From contig CM027380.1 in the NCBI GenBank assembly GCA_015680905.1, forward strand, positions 18,432,001-18,496,000: a stretch of DNA of 64,000 bases, in the 5' to 3' direction. A program made the position numbers and the translations under genes. Every line of letters starts with the position of its first letter. The stretch's first letter is position 1. Source of the stretch: Coptis chinensis (taxonomy: Eukaryota > Streptophyta > Magnoliopsida > Ranunculales > Ranunculaceae). Positions 3,001 to 32,582 of the stretch are shown piece by piece. The notes under the pieces were generated by a model, which did not search any database, was not told the DNA's origin, and saw only the letters and a program-made list of their open reading frames with translations.

Positions 3001-3747
3001 ATATCCTGATATTTTGTACTATGCTTGAATGCAATCTGTTAAAGTTCAAGAATTTTTCATTTCCTTCAAAACAAACGTCGGACCAAATGCAGGACCCAGA
3101 TATCTCGGTATATTACTCCAACATGTCAACTGACTAAGCTTTTTGAAAGGGAAAAAATTGATGTTGATTGCTTTCAACAGATGAAATGTCGATAATCAAA
3201 TCAACTTACATACGTTTATGGCTTAGTCTTACCTATGTAGCATGAGTTTATTTGATCTTGTATGATTATGTTCTTGTAGTTTTCATCGACGGAGGAAGCC
3301 ATAGAGACTCGAAATGCTCTTTACAACCTTCAATGGCCTCAAAATGGTGGAAGGCTCCTGGTTGCTGAATTTGTTGACCCCCAAGATGTGAAATTACGGG
3401 CGGATGCTTCTACTCAGCCCCAGGTACCTCCGGTCAGCAACAAACCAGCTCCAGTTCCAGTTCCAGCTCCAGCTCCATCACAGCCCAAACCGTCCCCTCG
3501 CCAAAATGTTTTAAAGCAGCAACTGCCTCCCCCTCCCCCACCACCACCAATTACTAACCCTCACACTGTAAGGGAGCGACTTCCGCCTCCACCCCCGGCT
3601 TCGGTTCCCAAGAAACCGGACCCACCTATTGTTACACTTGATGATCTATTCAGGAAAACCAGAGCAACTCCTAGGATCTACTATTTGCCACTGTCTGAAG
3701 AGCAGGTAGCAGCAAAGCTTGCAACGCAGACAAAAAACGCCAACTAG
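1..3747 (+). CDS. ACINUS: Acinus homologue (ASAP/PSAP splicing complex subunit), 5' part outside the window
   Basis: Four exons are visible: 1-948, 1791-1988, 2081-2232 and 3280-3747, all with GT/AG borders and compatible phases (1, 1, 0). The first exon is acidic, Ser/Asp-rich low-complexity sequence. The second holds a basic PPKRRRWNTE motif. The third and fourth form the Acinus-type RRM (SLRIDRFLRPFT to LLVAEFVDP). A proline-rich linker follows, then the RNPS1-SAP18-binding motif (VTLDDLFRKTRATPRIYYLP) close to the stop. In the known family this protein scaffolds RNPS1 and SAP18 in the nucleus and influences splicing and transcription; plants have one such gene with an N-terminal SAP domain, which would lie upstream of base 1. 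A further intron (3760-3840) sits just after the stop in the 3' UTR, a position that can affect nonsense-mediated decay. Identity is firm; expression is not shown by sequence. Confidence 0.93.
2621..3023. mobile_element. hAT-type MITE in the last coding intron of ACINUS
   Basis: The element starts CATAGTACAAATATC and ends GATATTTTGTACTATG, so it has terminal inverted repeats of about 15 bp. An exact 8-bp direct repeat, CTTGAATG, flanks it (2613-2620 and 3024-3031), the hallmark of hAT insertion. The 403-bp interior has no coding capacity and is a dense array of GATATTTG/ATATCG-like words, which gives it high self-folding potential. Confidence 0.85.
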
Positions 3748-15743: not shown

Positions 15744-16243
15744 GTTGTACCACCAGAGTCTACTGAAACTCAAGCCCCTTTCTTTGTTCATCACTTAGAC
15801 AATCCATCCACTGTGTTGGTTGCTCCTTCTTTATTAGGTAACAACTATATCACATGGATTCGTGCCATGACTATAGCCTTATGAGCGAAGAACAAATTTG
15901 GTTTTGTTAATGGCACGATTGAGAAACCAATTGATGCTGCTGAAATTCTTCAATGGCAGAGATGTAATGATCTTGTTTCATGCTGGCTCCTCAATTCTGT
16001 GAATCTTGAAATTTGTGGAAGCATTGCGTACTCTGAATCTGCAAGAGAAATCTGGAAGGACCTTGCGGAACGCTTCTCTCAATCAAATGCTCTTTTAGTT
16101 TTTCAACTCAAGGAATCCATTAAAGATACAAAGCAGGACGACATGTCTATCTTTGCTTATTTTACCAAGCTCAAGTCCTTGTGGAATGAACTTGATTCTC
16201 TCACTATCACTCAGCCATGCACTTGTGGATATTGTAAGCTTCT

Positions 16244-17290
16244 TATAACACCCCGTGTTTTATTCTTTTATTTTTATCCTAATAATAATAATAATTAAAC
16301 TAGATAAAATGAATAGATATAGATAACTATCAGATACGGATAAAAGCCCGTAGATAAATAGATAAGTGTTGTCCTTGTTTTTTTTGGGATGTTTTCTCAC
16401 GTAGAGTTTTGGAAAAAAAAACACAGAAAATGAGGGTTTTAGAAAAAATGAGAGTTTTACTGAAGGAAGGAAAGGAAGGTTTTTCCTGGTAGCTGGTGGA
16501 TAATCGGAGCGCGCTAAAGGTGAGTAGCTATTTTGCTATTTCACCGGATTTATAGTTTACGTATATCGGTGTATACTGTCTAATGTTTTTATACTGCTCA
16601 TTGTCTTGTTTTTATTCTATGTCGTATCGCCGAAGTTGTTAAAACTCTAGAGAAACTTCGGATTTGATATAGAACCGTCAAACCAGATTCTTGGATATCT
16701 TGTCGCTGAACTGCCGGCTCTCGAGGCCGTTAATGGCGGCGTGAGCACGGAGGCGTCCTGTAACGCCCGTATTTTTTAAATACGTATTTTTCTACTTAAT
16801 TAATTAATTTAATTATTTATTTTAAAAATTCGTCGGATTGGACTCGGGATACGTGGGCTTGGTTTTGGGCCCGAGTCGGTGTTGGGCTTGGGGTTTCGGA
16901 CCCAAGTATATAAAACACATTGTTCTAGAGAATAGGGTTTTGAAGATAATAAAATATAAAAAATGGAGGCAGAGAAAGAAGCTGGTTTGCTGGAGAGGTG
17001 GAGCACGACGATTCGGGCTAGGAAAATTCGTCGAGCTGTTAGTTAAGGTGAGTAGCTATTTTTGCTATTTCACGTAATTATAGTTTTCCGTGTACCGGGC
17101 ATATACCGTTATAAAGTTTCGCCATATTTTCGGTTCATTATTTGGTTATTAGCTTTAGATCCCCGCTTTTGAAACTCCCACCGCTCATATTGTTGAGACG
17201 ATATTTTGTTCTCGCTCATACCGCTGAAAATTGGTTAAACTGTATTTTGAAACTCTATTGGGAGCTTGGGATAACCGTTAATGGCGGCCT
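16244..17290. repeat. Partial tandem duplication of the LTR-like 5' end
   Basis: Three landmarks occur twice, 515-550 bp apart: an LTR-start motif (16244 TATAACACCCCGTG, 16759 TGTAACGCCCGTAT), GGTGAGTAGCTATTTT (16519, 17047) and GTTAATGGCGGC (16729, 17277). The two units are diverged. Either the 5' end was duplicated, or a related LTR piece inserted into it. Confidence 0.6.
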
Positions 17291-18842
17291 TAAGAAAAAA
17301 AAAAATCAAAGAAAAAGTTAGGTGAACGGTGGTTGTTGTTTTTGTGTTGATTGAAGTTTGGGTAGTAAAGGGGGTTGAGGCGCGGGTATGAGGTCGTCGA
17401 ATGGGTGCCGGGGAAGCTCGGTGGAAGCTCCCAAGACTTGTTAATGGCGCATCGCCATTACCGTGGATAATGGAACTTGGGGTTATCGCTTTTAAAAATC
17501 GCTTTGAACTGCTTTTGTTTGGATTTGATGTTTGTTTGATGTTGGAATGTGGATGGGGTGGTTGAAAGGTTGGGGAAGCCATTAATGGCGGTCCGAGATT
17601 GTAGATCCAGTTAAGGGAAGTGAGTGATGTGAGTAAATCGAAGTTTTTGGTTTTATGAAAGTGCTTTGGTTTTTCATAAGGAGTCGAACCGACTTGATGG
17701 AGAGGTGAGATGGTGGGCGCGCGGAGGCCGGTGGTGGAGCTTTCTTTGGAGGAAGAAGATGACAATCGCTCATCTTAGTTGGGCCTTTGTTAGTTTAGAT
17801 TGTTTTGGGCCGGTTTAGATTGTTTTGTTTGGGCCCGATTCTATTTTTAAATTGTGGGCGAACCCATTTGTATTTTTGGATCGGTTTAATTAAGTTTAGT
17901 TTGGGCCCGCTTTAAGTTAAGTTTTGGGACGATTTTGTTTGTTTGTTTTTGGGCCTAACTTCGGTTGTTTTTTAGGCCCGCTTCTAATATTATTGGGCCA
18001 TCATAGGACTTAAAATGGATCTATTTGGGTCTTCCAACTTTTAGACTTTCGGGTTCTAAGTTTTGGGCTTGGCCAGTTGGGTCCGAACCATTACCTTAGT
18101 CATGAGCCCTTGAGCCATGCACATTGACCTTAGCTATGAACCATGGCTATGACCCTGAACCTGTTGAACTTGGAAACGACAGTTTGACTTTGACAACGAC
18201 AGTTTGACTTTGACCAGGGTTGACTGTTGACTAGGGTTGACTTTGACCAGTTGACCCAATTTGACCTTTTAACTCGGATTATGATTTGGGTTATTAAGGT
18301 AGGTCTAGGGCTATTAGCATGCTTGGCTTTAGGCTAAGACCTCTATATATACGTGTGTATGTGTATTAACTATATGTGATTTTGCAGTATTTTATGATAT
18401 GCAACGTTATGACACTTAGACATCCAGGAAATTAATAACGCCAGAATAAAAATACAGAATCAAGATACTCATTCGTTATCTTAAATGATATATAAAATAA
18501 AGTTCAATAATGCGTAAATAAATTTACCGCACTCTTTTAGAACTCTCCACGCCTCAAGTTTTGGAATTGAGTTTTATGACTGATGATGTCATATGTTAGG
18601 TGGGCATTTATTGAATGTGCCATAAATGGCCCGCTAAGCGTTATATAGGGTATTCATTGAATGTGCCATGAATGACCGTGAGATTGTTTGGACCGCCTCT
18701 AGAGAGGAACTAAGGTATTAGCGCCATGAGTTAGTGGTATTAATTTGATTATGTGAGTGTTTGGGTTTTCTTGTGAATACCTAATATAATATCTACATAT
18801 GATATATAGAAGTTCTAACTTTCTTTTGCAGGAGGGTAGGAC

Positions 18843-19622
18843 TAGGGGTGTTAAAAGGGCCGGGTCGGGCTAGCCCGGCCCTCAAACCATAAAAGCCCTC
18901 ATGACTGAGGGCCGGGTCAGCCCGCCCCTAATGTGTGTTGAGGGCCGGGTCGAGTAGGGTCAGAACATAAATACACAAGCCCTTACCCGCCCCTCGGCCC
19001 TCAATTTTGAGGGCCAAATGAGGGCCGGGCCGGGCCCAATCAAATTATACACTACTAATTTACTTAATTTTTTTTAGTAGTTTTAATTTTTTTATTATAC
19101 TTTTGATTATATATATCAATTTTAACTAAATATATAAAACTTATTTTTATATATTTAGAAAATAAGATATAGAGATGGTGGAAGAGATGAGAGCCTTACA
19201 CTTTCAATATTGAACTATGTTACTACGTTAGAATTGCATGTTAATTTTGTCTTTATATAACGTATATATCTCTCTTTCATTTAATTATAAAAAATGTATA
19301 CTGTTATATTCCAAGCTACTCCTTATTAAATACTAGTTGTAGCGAAAAAAGTTGATATAGCCTAGATAATTAAATTATAAAATATATATACAATGTAAAA
19401 CAACAACAAAAATTATGAGGGCCAAGTGAGGGCTGGTGAGGGCCTAATGAGGGCCGGGCTCACGTTCCAGAACCTAAGCCCTAGCCCGCCCCTAATAGGC
19501 ATGAGGGCCGGGCCGGCCCGCCCCTCAAATCTATGAGGGCCAGCTTTTGAGGGCTTTTACAAACATTTTTGAGGGCCGGGTCGGGCCGGGTTGAGGGCCT
19601 GAGGGCCAAATTATCACCCCTA
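18843..19622. mobile_element. hAT-type MITE (GAGGGCC-rich family) nested in the solo LTR
   Basis: The ends TAGGGGTGTTAAAAGGG and CCAAATTATCACCCCTA are inverted. Exact 8-bp duplications GGTAGGAC lie at 18835-18842 and 19623-19630. It shares the GAGGGCCGGG-rich subterminal regions with 15093-15743. It must be younger than the LTR it sits in. Confidence 0.87.
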
Positions 19623-22600
19623 GGTAGGACTTAATAACATTTTGTGCAGGGACGCGGTCCTACCCTTATACAGCAGTGGATATCGGTAAGTTTTAATTCA
19701 ATGGTTTAGATATTAAAATGAGGTATTATAATGAGTTATATAATGGAAGTCTTGCTTGGGAAGAAATTATGTCGGTTAAAATGACGGAACTACCTGTCTT
19801 CCAAGCTGTGAATGATTGAGTTATGGGATAAAATAAAGTGATTGTTTGAATAATTAAAGTATGATAATGGTTATATGTGGTTAGTCTACTCATACCAAAG
19901 AAATTCCATTTTTGCTTGACCCATGTTTGCTTTGTTTTGGCGTGGGTGTGTCCTTTAGGAACATAGGTGGAAGGCAAAGGAATCAAATCGCGTGTGATTG
20001 GGATTCTCACCGAGCAGTCCTGAGTTTAGTTTATTAGGTCCCGATCTTTTTGGGAGGATGTAATAACGTAGGGTTACATTTTTATATGACATGAAATACA
20101 ATGTTGAAGACCTGTTATTCTTAAAGTTTGTTTATGTTTGTATTGGGATGGAAGAAAGTTTTTAATAAAGTGATAGTTGAGGAATTTGGAGATTTTTGTT
20201 GTTAAGTTGATCCTTGCCAGATGTGGGTTTTAGGTTTTGACATGTGTTGTATCCCCGTCATAGCCCGAAGTTTTAGACAATTGAACCAAGTGATGGTTGA
20301 GATATTTATATTTCAATTATTCATTTTTTTTTAATTGTTTAGAAATTCGGGCTGTGACACTTCTTGTAGATCAAATTCTTGACGATCGAGCAATGAAATT
20401 TCTTCAAGGTCTCCATGATAGGTATAAACCAATACGCAATCAAATACTTCTCATGGAGCCCTTTCCTCCCATTACCAAGATTTATTCGCTTGTCCGTCAA
20501 GAAGAAAAGCAACAAGAGATCCATTCATTCCCATCTCTTGTTCTAGAAGCAGCAGCACTTGTTGCGAAGTCCGTGCCTTGTGGAAACATTCTCAACCGTG
20601 GCAATCAAAAACCACATTTTCATTGCGATCATTGTGGTAGAGACAATCATACCATAGATCGTTGTTTCAAACTCCATGGCTTCCCTTATAAGAAATCTGT
20701 TGAACCACAGAAAGCAACAAAGAACAATGAACATGAAATGTTGGCACCTCCTAATGTCACTAAGGAACAATACAACAAATTACTTGCCATGCTTTCTTTA
20801 GGTAGTGCAGATTATAGTGCAAACCTAGCAGGTCTTGTTCTCACTGTTCCCACAAAATCGGTATGGATTATTGATACAGGAGCATCTAATCATATGTGCT
20901 ATAGCTTATCTTCTTCATATAAACCATGTCCCAATCCTTTTAGTGTTGGTCTTCCTGATGGTTTAAATGCTTTTGTAACTCATATTGGTACTGTTCAGTT
21001 GTCTCCTACTATTAAACTTGAAAATGTTTTCTTCATTCCCTCTTTCAAGTTTAACCTTTTATTTGTTAGTCAACTTACCAATTCAAATGATTGTGCTATA
21101 ACATTTTTTCCTCGTGAATGTGTTTTTCAGGACCAATCAACTAAGAGGACGATTGGGAAGGGTAACATTCATGAAGGGTTATACTATTTTCAAGCAGCTT
21201 CAACCATGGCCGTTATCAAACCACCCTTTATCGACTTATGGCGCATTGGTGCCTTGGTCACATTTCTTATCGCTCTTTAAGTCATCTAGTTAAAGACGTT
21301 TCAATTATTTCTTGTTCAGAAACTAAAGCTTGCAATATTTGCCCTCAAGCAAAACATGCTTGTTTATCGTTTCCTTCAAGTTATATTAATACTATTAGAC
21401 CTTTTCATTTAATTCATTGCAATATATAGGGTCTTTTTTCTCAACCATCATTAAATGGTTCTCGTTATTTTTTAACTATTGTAGATGATTTTAGTCGTTG
21501 CATTTGGCTCTATCTCATGCATTTTAAATCAGAAACAAAACAAATTTTGCAATCTTTTTTTGCCATGGTTCGCACACAATTTCAGTATCGCATACATCGT
21601 GTTTACTCTAACAATGGTACTGAGATTCTTCCATCTATTCAACTTGTTCGTTCCGATAATGGAACTGAGTTTTTATCTAAAGATATGCAAAAGGCTTTTT
21701 TTTTTGACAATGGTGTTATTCACCAACGAAGTTGTGTTGGAACTCCCCAGCAATTGTTAAACGTTGGTCTCTACACCAACTTGATGTTAACAATGCCTTC
21801 TTACAAGGTGATCTTAACGAAGAGGTTTACATGACACTTCCACCCAGTTTTACTTGACAGGGGGACACTCGGGTTTGTAAGCTTAACAAATCCATTTATG
21901 GGTTGAAACAAGCATCTCGCCAATGGTTTGCAAAGTTCTCTTCTACACTCCTTGGTGCAGGCTTTTCCCAATCTAAGGTTGATTACTCTTTATTCAATAT
22001 TTATCATAAAGGCAGTTCTTCGATATTTGTTCTCATATATGTGGATGATATTATTATTATCGGCAATGAAGAACATGCTATTCAGCCAAATTTTTCATCA
22101 AAGACTTGGGAAAATTGAAACATTTCCTTGGTATTGAGGTTGCTCACTCACAAAAGGGCATTTTTATCTCCCAAAGGAAATACGTTTTGGACATTCTCAA
22201 GGACACCGGTTTTATTGGTGGACGTATTGCTGATTTTCCTATGGAGCAGAAACTTCGATTATCTAAAGAAGGTGATACATTGCTCCCTGATCCGACTCCT
22301 TATCGTCGTCTAGTGGGTCGCTTAATTTATCTGACGGTGACACAACTAGATATTACTTATTCTGTTAACATTCTAAGTCAGTTTATGCAATCTCCTCGCA
22401 TTACACATCTTGATTCAGCTCATCGAGTGGTTCGCTATTTGAAAGGCTCTCTTGATACAGGAATCTTTTTCTCATCTTCTAGCAGTCTTCATTTACGAGG
22501 TTACTGTGACTCTGATTGGGCACGATGCCCAGATACTCGATGCTCAACAATTGGTTATTGCACTTTTTTGGGATCTAATCTTGTTTCATGAAAAACTAAG

Positions 22601-22983
22601 AAACAAGTGACAATTTCCCGTTCTTCCGTCAAAGCTGAGTATAGGGCTATGGCTACGCTCACTTGTGAATTACAGTGGTTAAAATAACTACTCAGTGATT
22701 TTGGATTGTCTCATCCATCTCCTATCTTCATGTTCTGTGATAATAAAGCTGCTCTGCATATCGCTAATTAACAACCCTGTATTTCATGAGCGCACTAAGC
22801 ACATAGAACTTGATTGTCACTTCATTAGAGAGAATATTCAATCCAAGCTTTTAGCCCCATGGTATATCTCTTCTAGTGCTCAGCTTGCAGACATTTTCAC
22901 TAAACCATTGGGCAAAGATCAAATTTCCAATTTGCTTGGCAAGCTCAGCGTGCACTCCTTGCACGCTCCACCTTGAGGGGGAC

Positions 22984-23196
22984 TGTTAAGATATCTACAC
23001 ATGTTTACTCCAAAAATCAAGGAACTACTTGATAAGATTTGGAGTCTATCCTTCCTGTTAGTTACACCAATGTAATCTTTGTTTAGTTAGATAGGTAGAG
23101 TGAATCTCTCCATACGGTGTAATCTCTCTTTTAAATACATGTTAATCAATAGAACAAAACACTTGTGGAAATCAATATAGAGTGTTTCTTTTCTCA
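22984..23196 (+). repeat. Right LTR of the copia fossil
   Basis: 213 bp, preceded by the polypurine tract and followed by the TATTC target duplication. Confidence 0.92.
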
Positions 23197-23201
23197 TATT
23201 C

Positions 23202-24100
23202 CTTTGTGCTGTGTGTGACGTGCTTACTAATACCGACATTGGGGAGGGGAAATCAAATTGCTTACCACATTGAATCTGGCAGGCAAAGCTATTCGTTTCC
23301 TTTTCCAATTAGGAAACATGATACCTAGCAGGCTAGCAGTATAAGCTATATTCGGTTGTTGCCATACGCCCACACATCGACAATCTCCTCCTTGGCGAGT
23401 GATTCACCACCCTGGACCTCTTGTTGCCGACTCCTCTGTTGCATGGGTACGCCCTAATTTCCTTTGTATCACGTACCCGTGTCCTGCGGACACGGACACG
23501 GACACGGACACACGGACACAAGCAAAATAGACCCTAATTCTCGATCTCGCCCGTCCAAATCGCCGCACCCGCGGTCCAAACCCGGACACTCGTCGCCCGC
23601 ACCCATGCAACACAGGCCGACTCCCATCACAATTAACCATCGCCACCAACTCGATCAAGTGCACCTTCAATTCACACACTCACACTCACACTAACACTCA
23701 CTTCACTAAATGTGTAACAAGTCGAGGGTAAAGCCTGAACATGTTTTGGGAACCACCTTTGTCAACATACGTACTGCATTGTTGTAATATGTCCCTTACG
23801 AATTTTTAGTTAAATTATAGCTATTTTTAAGTCTTTTTACTTGGTCATATCTAAGACCATTAATACTGAGTAGTTGAGAATGCTCCCAGTGACCCACGTC
23901 AGCCCCCCTTTTTTCTCTCAGACTGACACATCAGATTTTACCTAAAAAAATGAATTCTACCTCTTTTTTGGCAATTTCAATTGTTCGTAGTCCAAAATAG
24001 ATAAAAACCCAAAATAGATAAGTAGATAAAAACCTCATTCTTAAATCTTATCTCCATTCTTAAAACCTGGAATTTTTATATCATCGAATTGGACGAAAGA
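23202..24100. other. No gene; holds a small TIR element
   Basis: Apart from the MITE at 23435-23615, I see no gene. Around 23893-23940 a C/T-rich block (CACGTCAGCCCCCC then TTTTTTCTCTCAG) recurs at 28652-28695, so a short dispersed motif is shared between the two places. Confidence 0.5.
23435..23615. mobile_element. 181-bp MITE (TGTTGCATGGGT ends)
   Basis: TGTTGCATGGGTAC at the left is inverted as CGCACCCATGCAACA at the right. The 9-bp sequence GCCGACTCC is repeated exactly on both sides (23426-23434, 23616-23624). The interior carries a short GACACG tandem array. A relative lies in the CID-gene intron at 52056-52204. The 9-bp duplication hints at a Mutator-type origin, but 8 bp (hAT) cannot be excluded. 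Confidence 0.75.
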
Positions 24101-24103
24101 AAA

Positions 24104-24326
24104 TCACATGGCTTGGGTATCAACCGTTACCTCTCCATTATATACATCGACTTCAACCCCTAATGATTCGAGAACTAATATCATAGTTCTAATGTCAGAA
24201 ACATTAGGAATGTTATGAAGTTTTGAATTTCCAGAACAACAAAGAGTTCCGGCAAGAACTGCCAATGCTGAGTTCTTCGACCCGCTAATGTGAACATGAC
24301 CAGATAGCTTGGACGTATGAGTTTTT
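24104..24326 (-). pseudogene. MurA-like (UDP-GlcNAc enolpyruvyl transferase) exon fragment
   Basis: The minus strand reads KLSGHVHISGSKNSALAVLA, then GTLCCSG and a run ending LESLGVEVDVYNGEVTVD. This is the N-terminal part of plant MurA homologues, whose bacterial kin catalyse the first committed step of peptidoglycan synthesis; plant copies are plastid-targeted. About 70 of more than 400 residues are present, with neither a start nor the catalytic region. It abuts an mTERF fragment in another reading frame, so it is a captured piece rather than a gene. Recognition is by motif memory only. Confidence 0.75.
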
Positions 24327-25081
24327 GGCAAGACGTTCAGCCTCCCAATTCTTTCCGTTCATGAAAAAATCTAATCCAATCCTAAGCTTTTCCTCTGAAA
24401 TAGCTATGCACTTAGGTTGCTGTCTAATCGCCAAACGAATTTCCTCATCTGACCAGCCAAAACTTCTTAAAATTCCCATTTTCGCTTCTCGCTTAGCCTT
24501 ACACACACTTGACACATCACGAACAGCATAGACAAACATTAACCTATTTCAAGAACTTCTTTGACCGCGTCACTAAAATTATCATTTTCTTGCCCACATG
24601 CTCGATGTCCAATCAAGAGTAGTTTGGAGATACTAGAATCTGGTACACCAAGATCATGCAAAATCTGAACTTTGGGCTCCAAATGATTCTGAGGATCCAA
24701 ACGAAGAAAGGCAACACTACCCACTTTGCTTATTGCTGAAACAACATTCTCTTCTCTTGGCAGTAACGTCTTGAGCAGTTGGAAACACGGGATGATTGTG
24801 TATTCTAAACTGGAATGTAAAATGTTACAGCATTTTGTAAGGAATTGGCATATGTCAGTGTCAGAAAAACCAACCTGTTTGAGATATTGAATTTTGGGTT
24901 CAAGGGTTTGGTCTGGATTGGACAACAGAACCACGGGGAATTTACTGATCATAAATGTGATTTGAGTATTGGTAAATTCATATTTTTGGAAGAGCTTCAA
25001 AACTGAGTCAGGATTAGTTGTGCTCTCAAAGTGAACTTTTTTAGCAGCTTTAAGAGCTGCTTCAATGGAGAGACCACATGA
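24327..25081 (-). pseudogene. mTERF-family protein fragment
   Basis: Repeated ~30-residue mTERF helices are visible on the minus strand: FTNTQITFMISKFPVVLL, LKQVGFSDTDICQFLTKC, LGVPDSSISKLLL and MGILRSFGWSDEEIRLAI with LDFFMN near the end. Plant mTERF proteins bind organellar nucleic acids and are usually single-exon genes with a transit peptide. Here the upstream limit (about 25081) is a hard edge, with a stop in frame and no transit peptide. At least one in-frame stop near 24540 separates the two blocks. The downstream end runs into MurA-like sequence out of frame. It is therefore truncated at both ends. Confidence 0.8.
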
Positions 25082-25520
25082 CTTTTCAAGTTAAAAACCT
25101 CTTTCTACACCCTTTTTTCAATTCTTTTGATAGCTTCATGCAAAATTTTAATTTAAACATCTTATTTGTTTCCATGAGCGATATCCATGATCATGACTTG
25201 CTAAACCTCGTGAAAATTCTAGGACGCCATAAAGAAAAGTATTTCCTTTATGATCTGAAGAGCCAAGAGTCACAGCTGATTGGAAACGTAAAGAAGAATT
25301 CTAAGTTGTATTATCCATCTGTGTTTCATACAAATAGCTTTGTCAGTTAGTAAGGATCGGGATTTAGTCTGTTCTTTCTGTCTTTCTATTTTTTTCATTG
25401 TTTTTCGTTTTTGTTTTAATTGCATTATGGTGTGGGCATCAGTTCAATTTTACGTTTCAGTACACTTTGAGAATGATTTGGAGAATGGGTTTTGTATTCA
25501 GATTTCTACCTCTATTGGCT
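25078..25520 (+). pseudogene. Possible F-box-associated domain fragment
   Basis: Starting exactly where the mTERF fragment stops, the + strand reads KEKYFLYDLKSQESQLIGN followed by LYYPSVFHTNSFVSV. This resembles the C-terminal beta-propeller-like repeats of plant F-box proteins (x-FxLYDx...VYxxSLVS). Only about 80 residues fit and no F-box is seen. The assignment is weak, but the abrupt border with the mTERF fragment supports the idea of another captured piece. Confidence 0.35.
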
Positions 25521-25544
25521 TGAAATAGCAATTTAAGCAGGATA

Positions 25545-26084
25545 TTGGAGTGTTCGGATGAACTTCCGGAGGTCCTTTTGTTACCACCAGTTATGATTAT
25601 GATGCTCCCATAGATGAATATGGTGAGATAAGATTCTTCCGAGAAGTCTGCATGCATTGGTTGCTCATGAATTTTGTTGGTTTTGATTGCTTTAAACTTC
25701 ACGACTTGCAGGTTTGGTAAGGCAGCCTAAATTTGGGCATCTGAAAAATCTTCATATGGGCTATTAAGCTCTGTGAGGGTGCTTTAATTTTTGTCGACCC
25801 CGTTACTACTTCTTTAGGAAGCTTCCAACAGGTAACAATTTTTCTAATATCACGAAGTTTTCCACCTGTTCTAACTTGGTAACTCAGTTGCCTTAATCAA
25901 TCATATATATATTTCAGGAAAGTGTATTCTCTTCCAACTCCGGAGGTTGTGCAGCCTTTCTCGCGAACTACAATTCCAAGTCTGCTGCCAAAGTTGTGTT
26001 CAGTAACAAGCACTATAACTTGCTTCCTTGGTCAATCAAAGATCTTCCCTGATTGTGAGAATATAGTCTTTAATACCGCAAAAA
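25545..26084 (+). pseudogene. Beta-galactosidase (GH35) gene fragment
   Basis: Three exons keep their introns: about 25545-25622 ([21 protein letters not shown] without its last residue), 25712-25831 ([16 protein letters not shown], then AIKLCEGALIFVDP) and 25918-26084 ([20 protein letters not shown], then [12 protein letters not shown]). They match consecutive central exons of plant cell-wall beta-galactosidases, just after the GGTNFGRT motif. One extra base before AIKLCEG and another before the PDCEN block break the frame. Neither the catalytic N-terminal half nor the C-terminal domains are nearby. It is a partial genomic copy, not a processed one. Confidence 0.85.
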
Positions 26085-26143
26085 GTAAGTAGTGTAAGCT
26101 ATAAAGAAGCTCTGTATAAACCTATTTTAATATCTTAACCAAT

Positions 26144-26206
<63 letters not shown>
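26144..26206. repeat. (TA)n microsatellite
   Basis: About 30 uninterrupted TA units in the stretch between the beta-galactosidase and topoisomerase fragments. Confidence 0.95.
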
Positions 26207-26207
<1 letters not shown>

Positions 26208-26849
26208 CATAATCGAAGGTAACTAAATCCTAGCTGTTTAAAGATGTATTTTTGGCGTGCTTTTCCACTGCCCCGATGCCCTTTGGCGGCTTGGCCCCCT
26301 ATCTTTCTCTCTTCGGTAGATTGACCGGATATTTCCTTTAAGTTCTTTCCCTTCTCTTTACTGGTAGATGTATACGTATTTTTAAGTATATGTCTTTCCC
26401 CTTTTCTTTCAATTCTATATATATATATTTTTAAACCCATGATGGCATGATATACCCTTGCTTCTCTTGCATTTAATTCTTTTACCTACTGAATGTTTAT
26501 TCTTTTTGGAATAGCTCCATCTCCTTTTGAGGCGCCAAACTCTGTTTTTCCGAGTAGCAGTACAATTGCAACCAAGGCAGTCACCACCAGCGCACCTTTT
26601 AGTGCTTCAGCAATGTATCATTGAGTTTTGGATACGGGTTTCCACTTCCCACGGACTACTCAAAACCGAGACACGGACCTCTTGTTTTAGTAGCCACAAG
26701 TGGAGAAACCAACAAATAACAATTGAATTAATCTACTTCACTTTTGATTTTACGCTTTGACCATGAATTCGATCTTGATGCTTTCTTGCCAAAAAACACA
26801 GTTTTGATCCATTTTCTTAGAGATTTCCCCATTCCAAGAAGTAAAGATC

Positions 26850-28459
26850 CAGATAAAATTTTAAAGAATTTCATGACTGATTGGAGAACAGTAATAGGGA
26901 AGAATCATATTATAAAGAAATTTGAACTTTGTGATTTCACCCCAATCTATGAATGGCATCAAAATGAGGAGAAGAAAAAACAAATGAGTACAGAAGTATG
27001 TTAGTGTGATTACTGTTACATAAAGAAACAGTTGTATATGGATCTTAGCTTATTGTTCAATGTTGTTTTGATTTGACTAACATTCATGACTTTTGCAGGA
27101 GAAAAAGCTCATGAAAGAAGAAAAGATGAAGCAAGAAGAGAAGTATATGTGGGCTATTGTTGACGGTGTCAAAGATAAGGTTACCTTTGACTTTGACGTA
27201 TATAAGCTCTTAGATATTTATTTAAATGTAACATGAATTTTATGCTGGTAATTGCACTTAATTCTTTCTAATAAAATAGGTCTCAGTTTGAGTCATATAT
27301 AAACTCTGATTAGAAAGAATTAAGATGATGGTGTATATCGAAGTCGTGGTTTGGGGAAATTAGGAACGTAGAATGATAAAAAGCATACACAATTATCTAG
27401 AGTTGGTGTTGTTTAGGGGTTGTGCTTTGTTGCATAGTACATAGTCCCCATTATGGATGGCCATGAGCGGGCCGATTATGGTTTTCGCTTTGTAATAGCA
27501 TACATGCACCTAGAGTACTTGCATTTTACCAAAAAAAAAAGGGTGGGGGTGGTGTTTAGTTTTTCCGCTGAAAACGTTTTTTTTTATATGCATATGTAAT
27601 TTTAGGTACATGCTAATTTATTCAAGGATTACATTTTTTTTTAATGGATGTGACATTCTCAATCTCAGGTTGGAAACTTTAGAGTTGAACCACCGGATTT
27701 GTTAAAAGTGGTCGTGGAGAGCATCCCAAGGTTTATATACTTTGTTGTTTATAAAATGATTGATTTTTAGAAAAGCATGCGATTAAAAGCTTAGAATGGC
27801 TATTAATAAAGTTTATTTTTATCATAGAGGTTATTATATGTAGTCTTATTTGTTTTTATGCTTTCAGATAGGAAAACTGAAAAAGCGCATTCATCCAAGA
27901 GATATTACCATCAATATAGGAAAAGGTGCTCCAGTTCCGTAGTGCTCAATACCTGGTGAAAGGTTCCTGAATCCAATTGCATTAAGATTGCACTTATTTT
28001 GTGTTTTGAGGTGTGAATGAGGATTTATTATGTTATCCTTCCAAGGGTTAATTTATTTGGGGTGCCTTGCAGGTGGAAAGAAGTAAAGCATGACAATACC
28101 GTTACATGGTTAGCATTTTGGAATGACCCTATCAATCCAAAAGAATTCAAGTATGTATTCTTGGCAGCTAGCAGTTCATTAAAAGGCCAAAGTGACAAGG
28201 AAAAATATGAGAAGGCTAGGCTGCTGAAAGTAAATTCTCAACTCATTTCCATGTATTGTTTTTTATGTTTGTTCTTGAGTACTGTTTGTGTGCATATGTG
28301 GTAATAACTGTACATTAATCGATATCTGTGCAGGAATACATTGAAAATATAAGAGTAAATTACGCCAAGGATTTCACGAACAAAGATGTTGTGAAGCGGC
28401 AAGTAGCAGTTGCTACTTATCTTATTGATAAGTTAGCTTTCAGGGCAGGAAATGAAAAG
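26850..28459 (+). pseudogene. DNA topoisomerase I gene fragment with introns
   Basis: Exons at about 26850-26995, 27099-27179, 27669-27731, 27869-27961, 28073-28229 and 28334-28459 read [81 protein letters not shown] and VAVATYLIDKLAFRAGNEK. These follow the N-terminal core of eukaryotic type IB topoisomerase in order, with GT/AG introns. The exon at 27669 carries a one-base shift before GRGEHPK, and the next has a TAG where the family has Glu (PVP-stop-CSIPGE). The catalytic tyrosine region and the N-terminal tail are absent. The copy is partial, unprocessed and dead. Confidence 0.88.
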
Positions 28460-31400
28460 GTAACTTGTGAATGAATGTGCTTTGGCTTCTTCTGTGATCC
28501 ATTTTGTTTTGTTATACTTAATTTCTTACGAAAGCATTTTCTTATTTTTGAATAATTGATTATTTTCTGATTGGTTTCTTTATAAAGTTACTGCTTAACT
28601 TATGGAAACTCTGGATATCAAGTTCGGAAACTAAGGGGATGAAACTTTAAGACACGTCAGCCCCCTTTTTTCTCTTAGTAGGACACCTCAGCTTTTCCAA
28701 GAATTCGGCAAGAAAAAATGAAATACTCTATTATCCTTATTTCTCTTTTCTCCTCTGCCCTCCTCCAAAGTATTAACTCAAGAAACCCTTGATTTCAAAT
28801 TATAAGAACAACAAAGCGAAACGCCCGGTTTTGCTTTTTCTTTGGTTTTTCAATTGTTAAGCTATCCACCCGAAAACCCCAAACTCTCTAAAAAAAAGGG
28901 GAAAAATCATCTAGCCTTCTCGAACCGCTCCAATGATTATTCCCGTGTCTTCGGTTCGAATTGAACCGCTTTCGATCCAACTCTATATGCCTAAACGCTA
29001 CATTACTCCAAGTCAAATTGATCGCTTTTTTTCTTGAAGAGACCCCGGCGGGTAATTCCCCTAGCTTTTGTTTTCCTCAATTTCTTAATTCAATTATATT
29101 TATTTCCTCATATGTGACTCCTGGGATTTCTTCTACAAGAGAAATCATGGTCCAATCCCAAAGAGAGTTGATGATATTGACGAAAGTGTGGGAGGCATTA
29201 CGCATACACTTGCGGCCACAATTGCTGCAATGTATGGTGGGAAAATCCATGCTACGTTGAAAAAAATGGCAGAGAGACAAATAAGAGGGCCTATGGCAGT
29301 TGCACCACCAAAGATGAGATTGTGGTTCCTGCCGTGGTCCAGTGGACAACTGATTAAGATCAGGATTGGAGTCGCAAGACATATACCAGCAGCTCATGAA
29401 ATTGCAGTCCATTCCAGTGGTCTGAACGAGTAATTGCTAACCTTTATTGATGGAGAAAGAAGATCTTGGTACCTGAAATTGGATCCGTCTATTTCAACAA
29501 TATTGCTATATTGCTATGTGAATTGAAGTAACAATACGTGAATGTTGTTGCTTGGCTTTTGTTTGTTCAGGACGATAGTTTTTCATCTTATTTACATTAT
29601 TATTGACACACAGGAAATTGTGTTCTTGGCTTTTTTTTACATTTTGATAGTCTACTACTGTCTATACTGCAAGGAAGTTTTCATTCAGGCAAGGCCATTG
29701 CTTAGCCATTTCTTAGCTTACAAAACTAGGTCGGGGACTTTAAAGCCAGGGTGCTGGAACCAGCCCATGGTCCGAAGGCTAGGTACCTGAGTCTGGTCAA
29801 ATCAGCAATCCCCTATCTAGAGAGTCCCAAGAGACTCAAATGTCAGATGTCTAATGAGTCACGAGTGTTGGTGTACTCCAAACCAAACCGAAGCTGCGTT
29901 TGGGTACACAAAGGCTTCATGAAGCGTGTTCTAAACTTCTAATCTATACTGAAAATGAAATATAAAATGAAATAAATAATTAATTGTATTTAGAACTCAC
30001 AGTTTCATTTCTTTTGGGGAATCCTAAAACAATGCCAAATGACTTAATAACTGGAGCTATTACAGAAGGGCCGCGGTATTGGCACCCCCATAAATGGGAC
30101 TTGCACCCCTTTGACCAATTCAACGGTACTAACACCTTTCCATTAAATACACAAAAAACACTAACGGTAAGCACCTACCGCGGGATCGCACAATCCACGG
30201 CATCGGGTTGCCGCGAGATCCTATATCCCACGGAAGGTGGCTGCCGTGGGTTTTTTTAATTTTTTTTTTTAATAGTCACCGTAAAAAAAATTAGTTGTCG
30301 CGAGATGATTTTGATTCTAAAGTTGCAATATGTGCATGCATCATAAAACATAAATGTAGATTTGATTGTCATCAAATAGAAGTATTGAGAAAATGCATAC
30401 TACAACAATAAAAATATTCAAGTATAATATAAATGCTCAGCATGAACCAGTATGTTACATACTCACATCTTCCTTTTTCGGTTCCAAAAAAACTAAAATG
30501 TGCTTGCACGCAATTGTAAAAAAGTTACAAACACACTCATAACTTTTCGAAGGACATAGAACATACTAAAAACACCTATGAAGGGTTGGAACTATACCCA
30601 GACTAAACAAAGATTTTTGAAGATTATAGATCATCATATGCAGGCCAAACCCCATTTTGATAAGACATCAAAAACAAAATGGCTTTGAGCTTTTCGGGCT
30701 TAGAAAATTCGCAAGCAGAATTTTTCGCATTTTTCAACCCAATTTCAGGTTTGTGACCCTCCACATCGAGCTATACCACTCTAATTGCCTCTCTTGTTTC
30801 TCTGCATATTTTTTAATAATCAACTGAGATGAGTTTAAGGTAGCCACATGGATCAACTCATCAGACAGCTTAATTTTCCAAATATAGTATTTTCTATGTC
30901 CAGCAAGAGATATATGTACAGTATATTACTAAAAATTGACTTTTGCCCAGTTGGTGAAGTATGAGTACCACATGACCTCCGACTTTATTCAATTAAATAA
31001 TCCTAATTAAATAATTAACTCTTTATGGACTTGATCCGTCAGTAACTTTGTGGAGAAATTTAGATATTGACCTAACGTCCACATCTGTGATGAATCAAAG
31101 ATTAAGGTTTTCTAATACTTTGAGCTATGGAATGGAATAGGAATTACTGTGACTTGATTTGTAATGTTGTGATTGGATATAGAGTTGATAATCACACTAA
31201 CATGCACACTTTTGTAGATGTGTCAGTAAATAATCATGGTTACCTTACTTTGTAATCCAACTAATTCATAGTAATTGTGCTACAGGTATGAGACAGTTAC
31301 AAAGACATAGTCACAATATAGGAGATTACACTGCTTTTGTATTGAATGTTTCATTGTAAAATGTGTGTTGAGACTTGGGATTCTGCTCTCAAATATATCT

Positions 31401-32018
31401 TTTATAAATTGTAAAATTGTATATACATCTAGGTAACTAAAGAGTCATTACGAGTTTACTGATTTTCATTATTTCTATGTATAGAACTCCGAATGTAAAT
31501 AAATGTCATTAAATCATTGATTGTCGTCACAACATAAACAATTGTGTATTAACTTCTGTTTAGTTTGTTTAATGATTAAAATAGGATCTCGATTCTTATT
31601 TATAACTATTATGATGCATTAGTATGTAGGAGTATCCGCATTACATAATTGAAATGTCGTTAGCCATTTGTTTTTTAAGAGCAATCTGTGGCATATCACT
31701 TATATGCCCACTTGCTCAGTTTCCCTTGAATAGTTCTTTGTATGTTATTCCCTACTCCGTTGGTCCTCTAAATGATCTTCTGTTGAGTGGACCTTGGAAG
31801 AAGTCAATTTTAGATACAAGTAGTGGTTCGATATAGTTCTAAGATTGATATCCGGATTTACATTCACAAAACTTGGCAGACAACTCATCCATACATTAAT
31901 TGGGACTGGAAATCCAATTTATTTGCATATCAAACAGACTATAAAATGTGTTCCTGAAGATTGACCTCTCAAGAAATCGACTCTTTTGGCTATCGATCGG
32001 TCGGTCAACATTGTACAC
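28460..32018. other. Rest of the gene-fragment mosaic; no firm gene
   Basis: I cannot identify a gene here. An open stretch at 29188-29430 (+) and another at 29984-30140 (+) look protein-like in composition and may be further captured exons, but I recognise neither. At 30159 a CACTA start is followed by repeated CCGCGGGAT/GCCGCGAGAT/GCCGTGGG words, the style of CACTA transposon subterminal DNA; it lacks a matching far end. A TCTATACT motif after A at about 29943 is a weak candidate for a Helitron 5' end. Confidence 0.35.
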
Positions 32019-32230
32019 GATCCTTTCTTGGGTGGGGAGGACTTTGGCAATGTCATAGTGGAGTATTTGGTGAGTGAGATCAAATGCATTCATGGGATTG
32101 ATGCTACAATATAATCGCCAAGTTAGCTGTCCAAATGCTTCGTCAAGCAGTTGAGAAAGCTAAGGTAGGACTCTCATCTAGATTTGAAATTGACATCGAT
32201 TTGTCTTTCGCTACTGCTGATGTATCAGCC
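32019..32230 (+). pseudogene. HSP70 (mitochondrial type) exon fragment
   Basis: DPFLGGEDFGNVIVEYLVSE and KLAVQMLRQAVEKAKVGLSS with IDIDLSFATAD reproduce the HSP70 stretch TFLGGEDFDN...L-R-x-A-x-E-K-A-K...IxLPFITAD, in the version found in mitochondrial HSP70. A frame change lies between the two halves near 32105. Only about 70 of more than 600 residues are present. It lies 190 bp from a Helitron 3' end, which is where captured sequence is often found. Confidence 0.75.
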
Positions 32231-32419
32231 AGAAAAAATATATGTACGATTTACACTTACTAGATCAAGGTTTGAGAGCTTGCAATCCCCTTCAAAAAAT
32301 ATTAGAAAAACATAATCTCTTCAAACAAAATATGCAATGAATAATTTGCTATCAATATACATATATTATTTATTCAAGTGGACTTTAGGTTTTTGAGTAA
32401 TTAGCTATCTATGCAGCAA

Positions 32420-32449
32420 GTCCGGCCATAGGCCGGGCCAAATGGCTAG
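32420..32449 (+). mobile_element. Helitron 3' terminus
   Basis: A hairpin GTCCGGCC-ATA-GGCCGGGC (8-bp stem with one G-T pair, 3-nt loop) is followed seven bases later by CTAG, and the next host base is T. This matches the Helitron rule: a GC-rich hairpin near the end, terminus CTRR, insertion between A and T. The 5' end (TC after A) was not fixed, so the full extent is unknown; it could cover all fragments from 24.1 kb onward or only the last part. Confidence 0.7.
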
Positions 32450-32582
32450 TATAATACAGTAAGTGCATTCTGTTTTGGTAGCTTCGTTTTGTCACTATTA
32501 TTTTGGGTCCGCGCGTGTCATATATTGTGGGCGTTATAGGGTGGTCATTCTCTTAAGCCTACAAGTTAGCATTGTATAGCAT

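Follow-up and report, generated by a model that had tools for sequence, protein, structure and literature searches.

We analysed a 64,000-nucleotide stretch of the Coptis chinensis genome (assembly GCA_015680905.1, contig CM027380.1, labelled C4; C4:18432001-18496000), referred to below as the window, together with searches of the whole 936-Mb genome in 116 contigs. Positions given without a contig are window positions. At 23850-32449, on the plus strand, lies a whole Helitron of 8,600 bp that begins with TC, ends with a hairpin and CTAG, and carries truncated pieces of host genes, among them MurA (UDP-GlcNAc 1-carboxyvinyltransferase), mTERF and topoisomerase I. The original prediction, made from the letters of the sequence, had described a mosaic of gene fragments in both orientations that starts at 24104 and ends at a Helitron 3′ terminus. 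The mosaic was confirmed, as MurA, mTERF and topoisomerase I pass their Pfam cut-offs and pieces lie on both strands; the start was not, as alignment of the family puts the 5′ TC at 23850.

Both termini align to other family copies. The 3′ end has the predicted hairpin (32422-32436, plus strand; 6-bp stem, 3-nt loop, −8.7 kcal/mol), which stands 13 nt from the end, and the predicted CTAG at 32446-32449, followed by T at 32450. Of the 39 other top-scoring 3′-end matches in the genome, we fetched 20, selected by likeness to the window 3′ end. CTAG and the T directly after it were present in 20/20 of these copies, and the hairpin was identical in 19/20, in a sample picked for 3′-end likeness. Comparison of the window with the 20 fetched loci brought out a second conserved block, at 23847-24064. 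This contains the 5′ terminal region (23850-24064, plus strand), which starts TCTAAGACCATTAATACTGAGTAG and is preceded by an A at 23849; it is complete in eight of the 20 loci and in two further copies, with A before it in 10/10. The shared 5′ TC end that alignment of copies had been expected to reveal was thus found. At the junctions of the window copy, ...GGTCATA is followed by TCTAAGACC, and AAATGGCTAG by the flank TATAATAC. The flanks have TA in common and no longer repeat. Comparison of the first with the last 300 bp gave weak short matches alone (E 0.13 or worse), none of them at the ends, so no terminal inverted repeats were detected.

Across the genome, the 3′ pattern including its T had 500 matches at two or fewer mismatches and the 5′ pattern including its A had 750, compared with none for either reversed-pattern control; the matches are therefore beyond chance. 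The existence of other copies of the 3′ terminus had been named beforehand as decisive for the prediction, and they are numerous. Ends were then paired using 93 perfect 3′ ends among the matches listed (7 beyond C3:103.3 Mb excluded): 42/93 had a 5′ end upstream on the same strand within 30 kb, at a median distance of ~7.4 kb, while there were no pairs in the wrong order and two on opposite strands. As the 5′ pattern was commoner than the 3′ pattern at the same mismatch level, some elements may use this 5′ end with different 3′ ends.

The N-terminal MurA piece, 200 bp at 24114-24313 on the minus strand, matched PF00275 (E = 3.3e-11), and its 32 best PDB relatives are all UDP-GlcNAc 1-carboxyvinyltransferases. 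It is 100% identical to C4:90644624, a locus 72 Mb off on C4 that has further matches to the MurA family. The mTERF piece runs from 24313 to 25089 and is resumed at 25455-25534, both parts on the minus strand. PF02536 was matched in two frames (E = 3.8e-16 and 2.2e-6), and mTERF provides the sole stop-to-stop frame of at least 130 amino acids in the element. Long matches (90-93%) were found at 11 loci on C6 (L031-L041), of which ten cluster at 2.66-2.86 Mb and the eleventh is at 1.09 Mb; 9/11 carry frames of 377-387 codons, stop counted, and the resumed part is colinear with the same loci at 75-81%. Aligned to four of the C6 loci, the piece ends abruptly, which bears out the predicted abruptness of the junctions for mTERF, the piece for which a donor comparison was made.

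The stretch at 25535-26252 (plus strand) is a probable beta-galactosidase piece. Its peptide resembles beta-galactosidase, and the GHD match (E = 9.2e-4) scored 19.3 bits, under the cut-off of 34.5. These two observations, and not its 96% matches at C1:62524514 and C9:41888332, are what suggests the predicted identity, which is probable. A further short piece at 26447-26620 (plus strand) is 96% identical to C8:36275028. The topoisomerase I piece, at 26855-28638 on the plus strand, comprises exons and intervening sequence (PF02919, E = 5.9e-10 and 4.9e-9; PF01028, E = 7.2e-13). Its two matches to C1:15950304-15952298 (95% and 97%) both continue through the sequence between exons, so the piece was copied from genomic DNA, with introns retained as predicted; the window piece lacks ~210 bp that the C1 locus has. 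Among 13 topoisomerase I family matches, only the C1 locus has later catalytic-domain parts, and the others therefore look like fragments. Thus, to judge from similarity, the likely sources lie elsewhere, with topoisomerase I on C1, MurA on C4 and the mTERF cluster on C6. These three pieces do not lie beside their likely parents, as local duplication, the other refuting case named beforehand, would have required. The captured pieces are truncated and most likely non-functional. A transcript spanning them could be chimeric. From 28652 onwards, four modules without an assigned strand, X (28652-29177), Y (29178-30066), Z (30067-30319) and V (30320-30973), lead up to the 3′ core of the family at 30974-32449 (plus strand).

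The same modules in the same order were found at three other loci, at C4:12.85-12.86 Mb, C3:115.61 Mb and C4:77.64 Mb. The copy at C4:12.85 Mb has both its TC and CTAG ends intact within flanks that differ from those of the window. At C4:77.64 Mb, where the 5′ part was read and the remainder was taken from match coordinates up to window position 29513, the same 5′ end lies in another flank. The C3 sister leaves the MurA piece unmatched. Ungapped substitutions relative to the window amounted to 116/7,273 (1.6%) at C4:12.85 Mb, 200/7,923 (2.5%) in the C3 copy and 56/2,588 (2.2%) in the part read at C4:77.64 Mb. BLAST identities between the window and its sisters vary along the element, and the ungapped substitutions are still uneven per 400-bp window; strong recombination between copies was considered as a possible cause. 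Each sister has deletions or insertions of its own; at C4:12.85 Mb, ~3.5 kb replaces window 26165-27048. Such internal differences between copies would suit nested pseudogenes and segmental duplications, clustered so that they end by chance at a Helitron 3′ end. That explanation is nevertheless highly improbable: modules and their order agree at four loci over the parts read, the C4:12.85 Mb copy has identical TC and CTAG limits in different flanks, and the C4:77.64 Mb copy has the shared 5′ end in another flank. A (TA)n run occupies 26146-26206, and the C4:12.85 Mb sister diverges nearby, at 26164; the run is a possible break hotspot.

When the two flanks of the window copy were joined and searched against the genome, they matched a paralogous near-empty site at C7:17640674-17640907 (minus strand), at which the two flanks almost adjoin and no element lies between them. 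This comes close to the empty A-T site that had been expected. Degraded Copia-type pieces lie ~0.9 kb upstream of the Helitron, at 20294-22976 (Pol_BBD and integrase core, with RVT_2 just under the cut-off); no long terminal repeat pair for them was found within 16001-26000.

We then considered how the pieces were gained. The window departs from mTERF at ~25089/25090, continues with 365 bp of other DNA (25090-25454, no strand assigned) and returns to mTERF from 25455. These 365 bp have a similar copy at C9:61636894 (94%) and replace ~22-33 bases that are present at the C6 mTERF loci. Filler repair typically leaves such a trace, with copied DNA from another place standing where a few bases have been lost. 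An F-box gene had been suspected in this region, but Pfam gives it no support: 25054-25347 had a noise match alone (SPATA2, E = 0.033), and the stretch is filler inside mTERF. The MurA match stops at 24278 in three related elements (C2:104.2, C5:97.9 and C3:93.6 Mb), of which the first two also have the beta-galactosidase piece from 25535. Five related elements (L009, L013, L014, L018, L022) were tested for what precedes the beta-galactosidase piece, and in all of them the sequence read there, 79-637 bp long, had no match to window 24065-25534. Because a 365-bp filler interrupts mTERF and relatives carry other DNA in its place, the pieces were probably patched in internally and stepwise.

Order differs within the family as well as content. 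Module V, common to other family members, lies upstream of X in 7/7 fetched related elements that have both, the reverse of the window order. Since the interval from MurA to beta-galactosidase differs and the order of V and X is reversed in relatives, the pieces are, on these comparisons, exchanged and reordered inside a family of fixed ends. We tentatively propose, as a possibility well short of an established result, that the family acts as an internal cassette exchanger: between MurA and beta-galactosidase, one lineage would hold mTERF and another other DNA, the mTERF cassette would itself have been patched with 365 bp, and swaps by template-switching repair would outweigh gains at the ends. 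If this is true, the family is a natural record for choosing between capture models.

The remaining modules bear on whether the Helitron was itself the capturer. Module X is found at 75-76% at three loci with no topoisomerase I match listed. At four other loci (C8:76.18, C8:27.87, C4:104.18 and C6:42.27 Mb), a MurA fragment is followed ~2.7-2.8 kb downstream by the first part of Y, and at C7:67.09 Mb the two are 11.5 kb apart. Given this placement, Y and the MurA piece may share a source region. A coding role for Y was rejected, as it has no notable Pfam or PDB match. X and Y adjoin at 29178 in the window; they are ~5.7 kb apart at C2:44.27-44.28 Mb and C7:45.65 Mb, and the C2 locus has a perfect Helitron 5′ end between them.

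Nested transposons, such as Pack-MULEs or retrotransposons that transduce flanking DNA, could have carried the gene pieces in. In keeping with this, X, Y, Z and 29679-30021 (in Y) match independently elsewhere, and topoisomerase I recurs together with X at C7:45.65, C9:38.56, C9:24.38 and C4:72.10 Mb, where the matches listed include neither MurA nor mTERF. The filler, however, substitutes for mTERF bases and shows no target duplication, and no inverted repeats frame MurA, mTERF or the filler among 20 listed inverted pairs, which is a weak point as most of these are a TA run. We consider entry in nested transposons unlikely.

Alternatively, pieces may have been added at the ends, through 3′ read-through or through a new upstream 5′ end, with older ends left buried inside. 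Truncated copies of the 5′ end do occur inside two relatives, in L026 (1271-1771, first 18 bp missing) and in L023 (oriented position 3674, first 33 bp missing), the latter with modules upstream, and adoption of a new upstream 5′ start in L026 and L023 is a possible second route of gain. The start of module X is weakly like the element's 5′ region, and 3′ bypass is described as demonstrated for Helraiser (PMC4778049). In the window, by contrast, each exact terminus pattern occurs once in the whole 64 kb, and the filler and the differing interval between MurA and beta-galactosidase are internal events. End addition as the general explanation is conceivable, though we doubt it; internal patching remains our preferred reading for the window copy.

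The 3′ core, starting at 30974 or 31156 and reaching the end, is carried wholly or mostly by 12/20 fetched copies. It contains a degraded HSP70 remnant at 32016-32165 (plus strand). PF00012 matched 32016-32105 just below its cut-off (E = 3.6e-4; 19.3 bits versus 20.6), while the sister element L026 carries a longer, clear form (E = 6.3e-36). The HSP70 identification made originally is therefore secure in the sister and falls just short in the window. L023 holds a form similar to that of L026, as judged by eye. When a 759-bp HSP70-bearing stretch of L026 was searched, copies came up at 83-98%, followed by a more distant group with 65-72% identity across at least ~300 bp, presumably HSP70 genes. 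Because the L026 form is longer and the matches to its stretch fall into these two groups, the HSP70 piece is, as far as alignments tell, an old passenger and no recent capture. Loss of a source-gene intron from the HSP70 piece, suggested by gapped matches at C1 and C8, was rejected, as no HSP70 can be read in the first 189 bases.

Taken together, the element, one of a family numbering hundreds of copies, is very probably a non-autonomous plant Helitron that was mobilised in trans, gained genomic gene pieces stepwise inside and was then amplified by transposition. The view that a Helitron gathered gene pieces as genomic copies is thereby upheld. No Rep or helicase was found in the ten window pieces sent to Pfam and the sole long frame is mTERF, hence the classification as non-autonomous. 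RepHel is abundant in the genome, with at least 157 matches. On general knowledge of Helitrons, the RepHel protein of an autonomous element would act in trans and the element would be copied by rolling-circle (peel-and-paste) transposition. Pieces of genomic DNA would have been gained stepwise within it, at least partly via filler-DNA patch repair, and then multiplied as it transposed. RepHel elements of matching termini would be recognised by the end sequences TCWAAGACCATTAATACTGAG and GGCCATAGGCCGGGCCAAATGGCTAG.

Several observations weigh against this account. An autonomous partner with the same ends was not found among the matches listed; the 42 paired elements contained none of the 59 RepHel matches compared on C1-C3 and had none within 2 kb, and the 3/59 within 20 kb of a terminus were not fittingly arranged. 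The hairpin is just modestly more stable than shuffled sequences (z −1.96; 9/200 equally stable). With TA on both flanks, a 2-bp duplication is possible from the window copy alone. In the C3 sister, the 5′ end lacks its first 29 bp. The C7 site is not base-exact, as query 146-242 (junction at 150) is swapped for 16 bases, and the joined-flank search of the genome found no base-exact empty site. Finally, the inference of internal filling draws on a single set of clear junctions and a single interval that differs.

How pieces enter Helitrons is debated, and the Coptis family offers hundreds of copies, nameable likely sources and alignable junctions, so that internal filler events could be counted against end read-through. 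It also carries a warning for annotation, since the MurA, mTERF, topoisomerase I and HSP70 pieces could be mistaken for genes. Helitron gene capture is already well known, as in maize, and the Coptis element adds an example, not a new phenomenon. Our literature search, with hits partly judged by title, found no report of such capture in Coptis or Ranunculales. The main texts of the Coptis genome papers compared do not contain the word 'Helitron', and a Ranunculus genome paper gives, in its accessible part, just a Helitron total and the software (PMC12448783).

Pack-MULEs are marked by long terminal inverted repeats and a 9-bp target-site duplication. Unlike them, the Coptis element has Helitron ends; it lacks terminal inverted repeats, and any target-site duplication is at most 2 bp long. 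Rice Pack-MULEs are similar in being DNA elements with host gene pieces (PMC13317346). In maize, Helitrons that carry pieces of several genes are well established (PMC4528327, PMC13317346, citing Du et al. 2009 and Morgante et al. 2005). Like the Coptis element, they are described there as non-autonomous, with truncated pieces of unrelated genes and many copies (PMC13317346, PMC4528327); the genome and the captured genes are different, and the likeness is one of descriptions, not of terminal sequences. Helraiser and Helibat1 share the TC and CTAG ends and the AT target, with the 3′ hairpin 11 nt from the end in Helraiser and 13 nt in the Coptis element (PMC4778049 for Helraiser). Helraiser is a reconstructed autonomous bat element, whereas no RepHel gene was found in the Coptis element. 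Gene capture by 3′ read-through has been shown for Helraiser (PMC4778049), while in Coptis internal patching is favoured for at least one piece.

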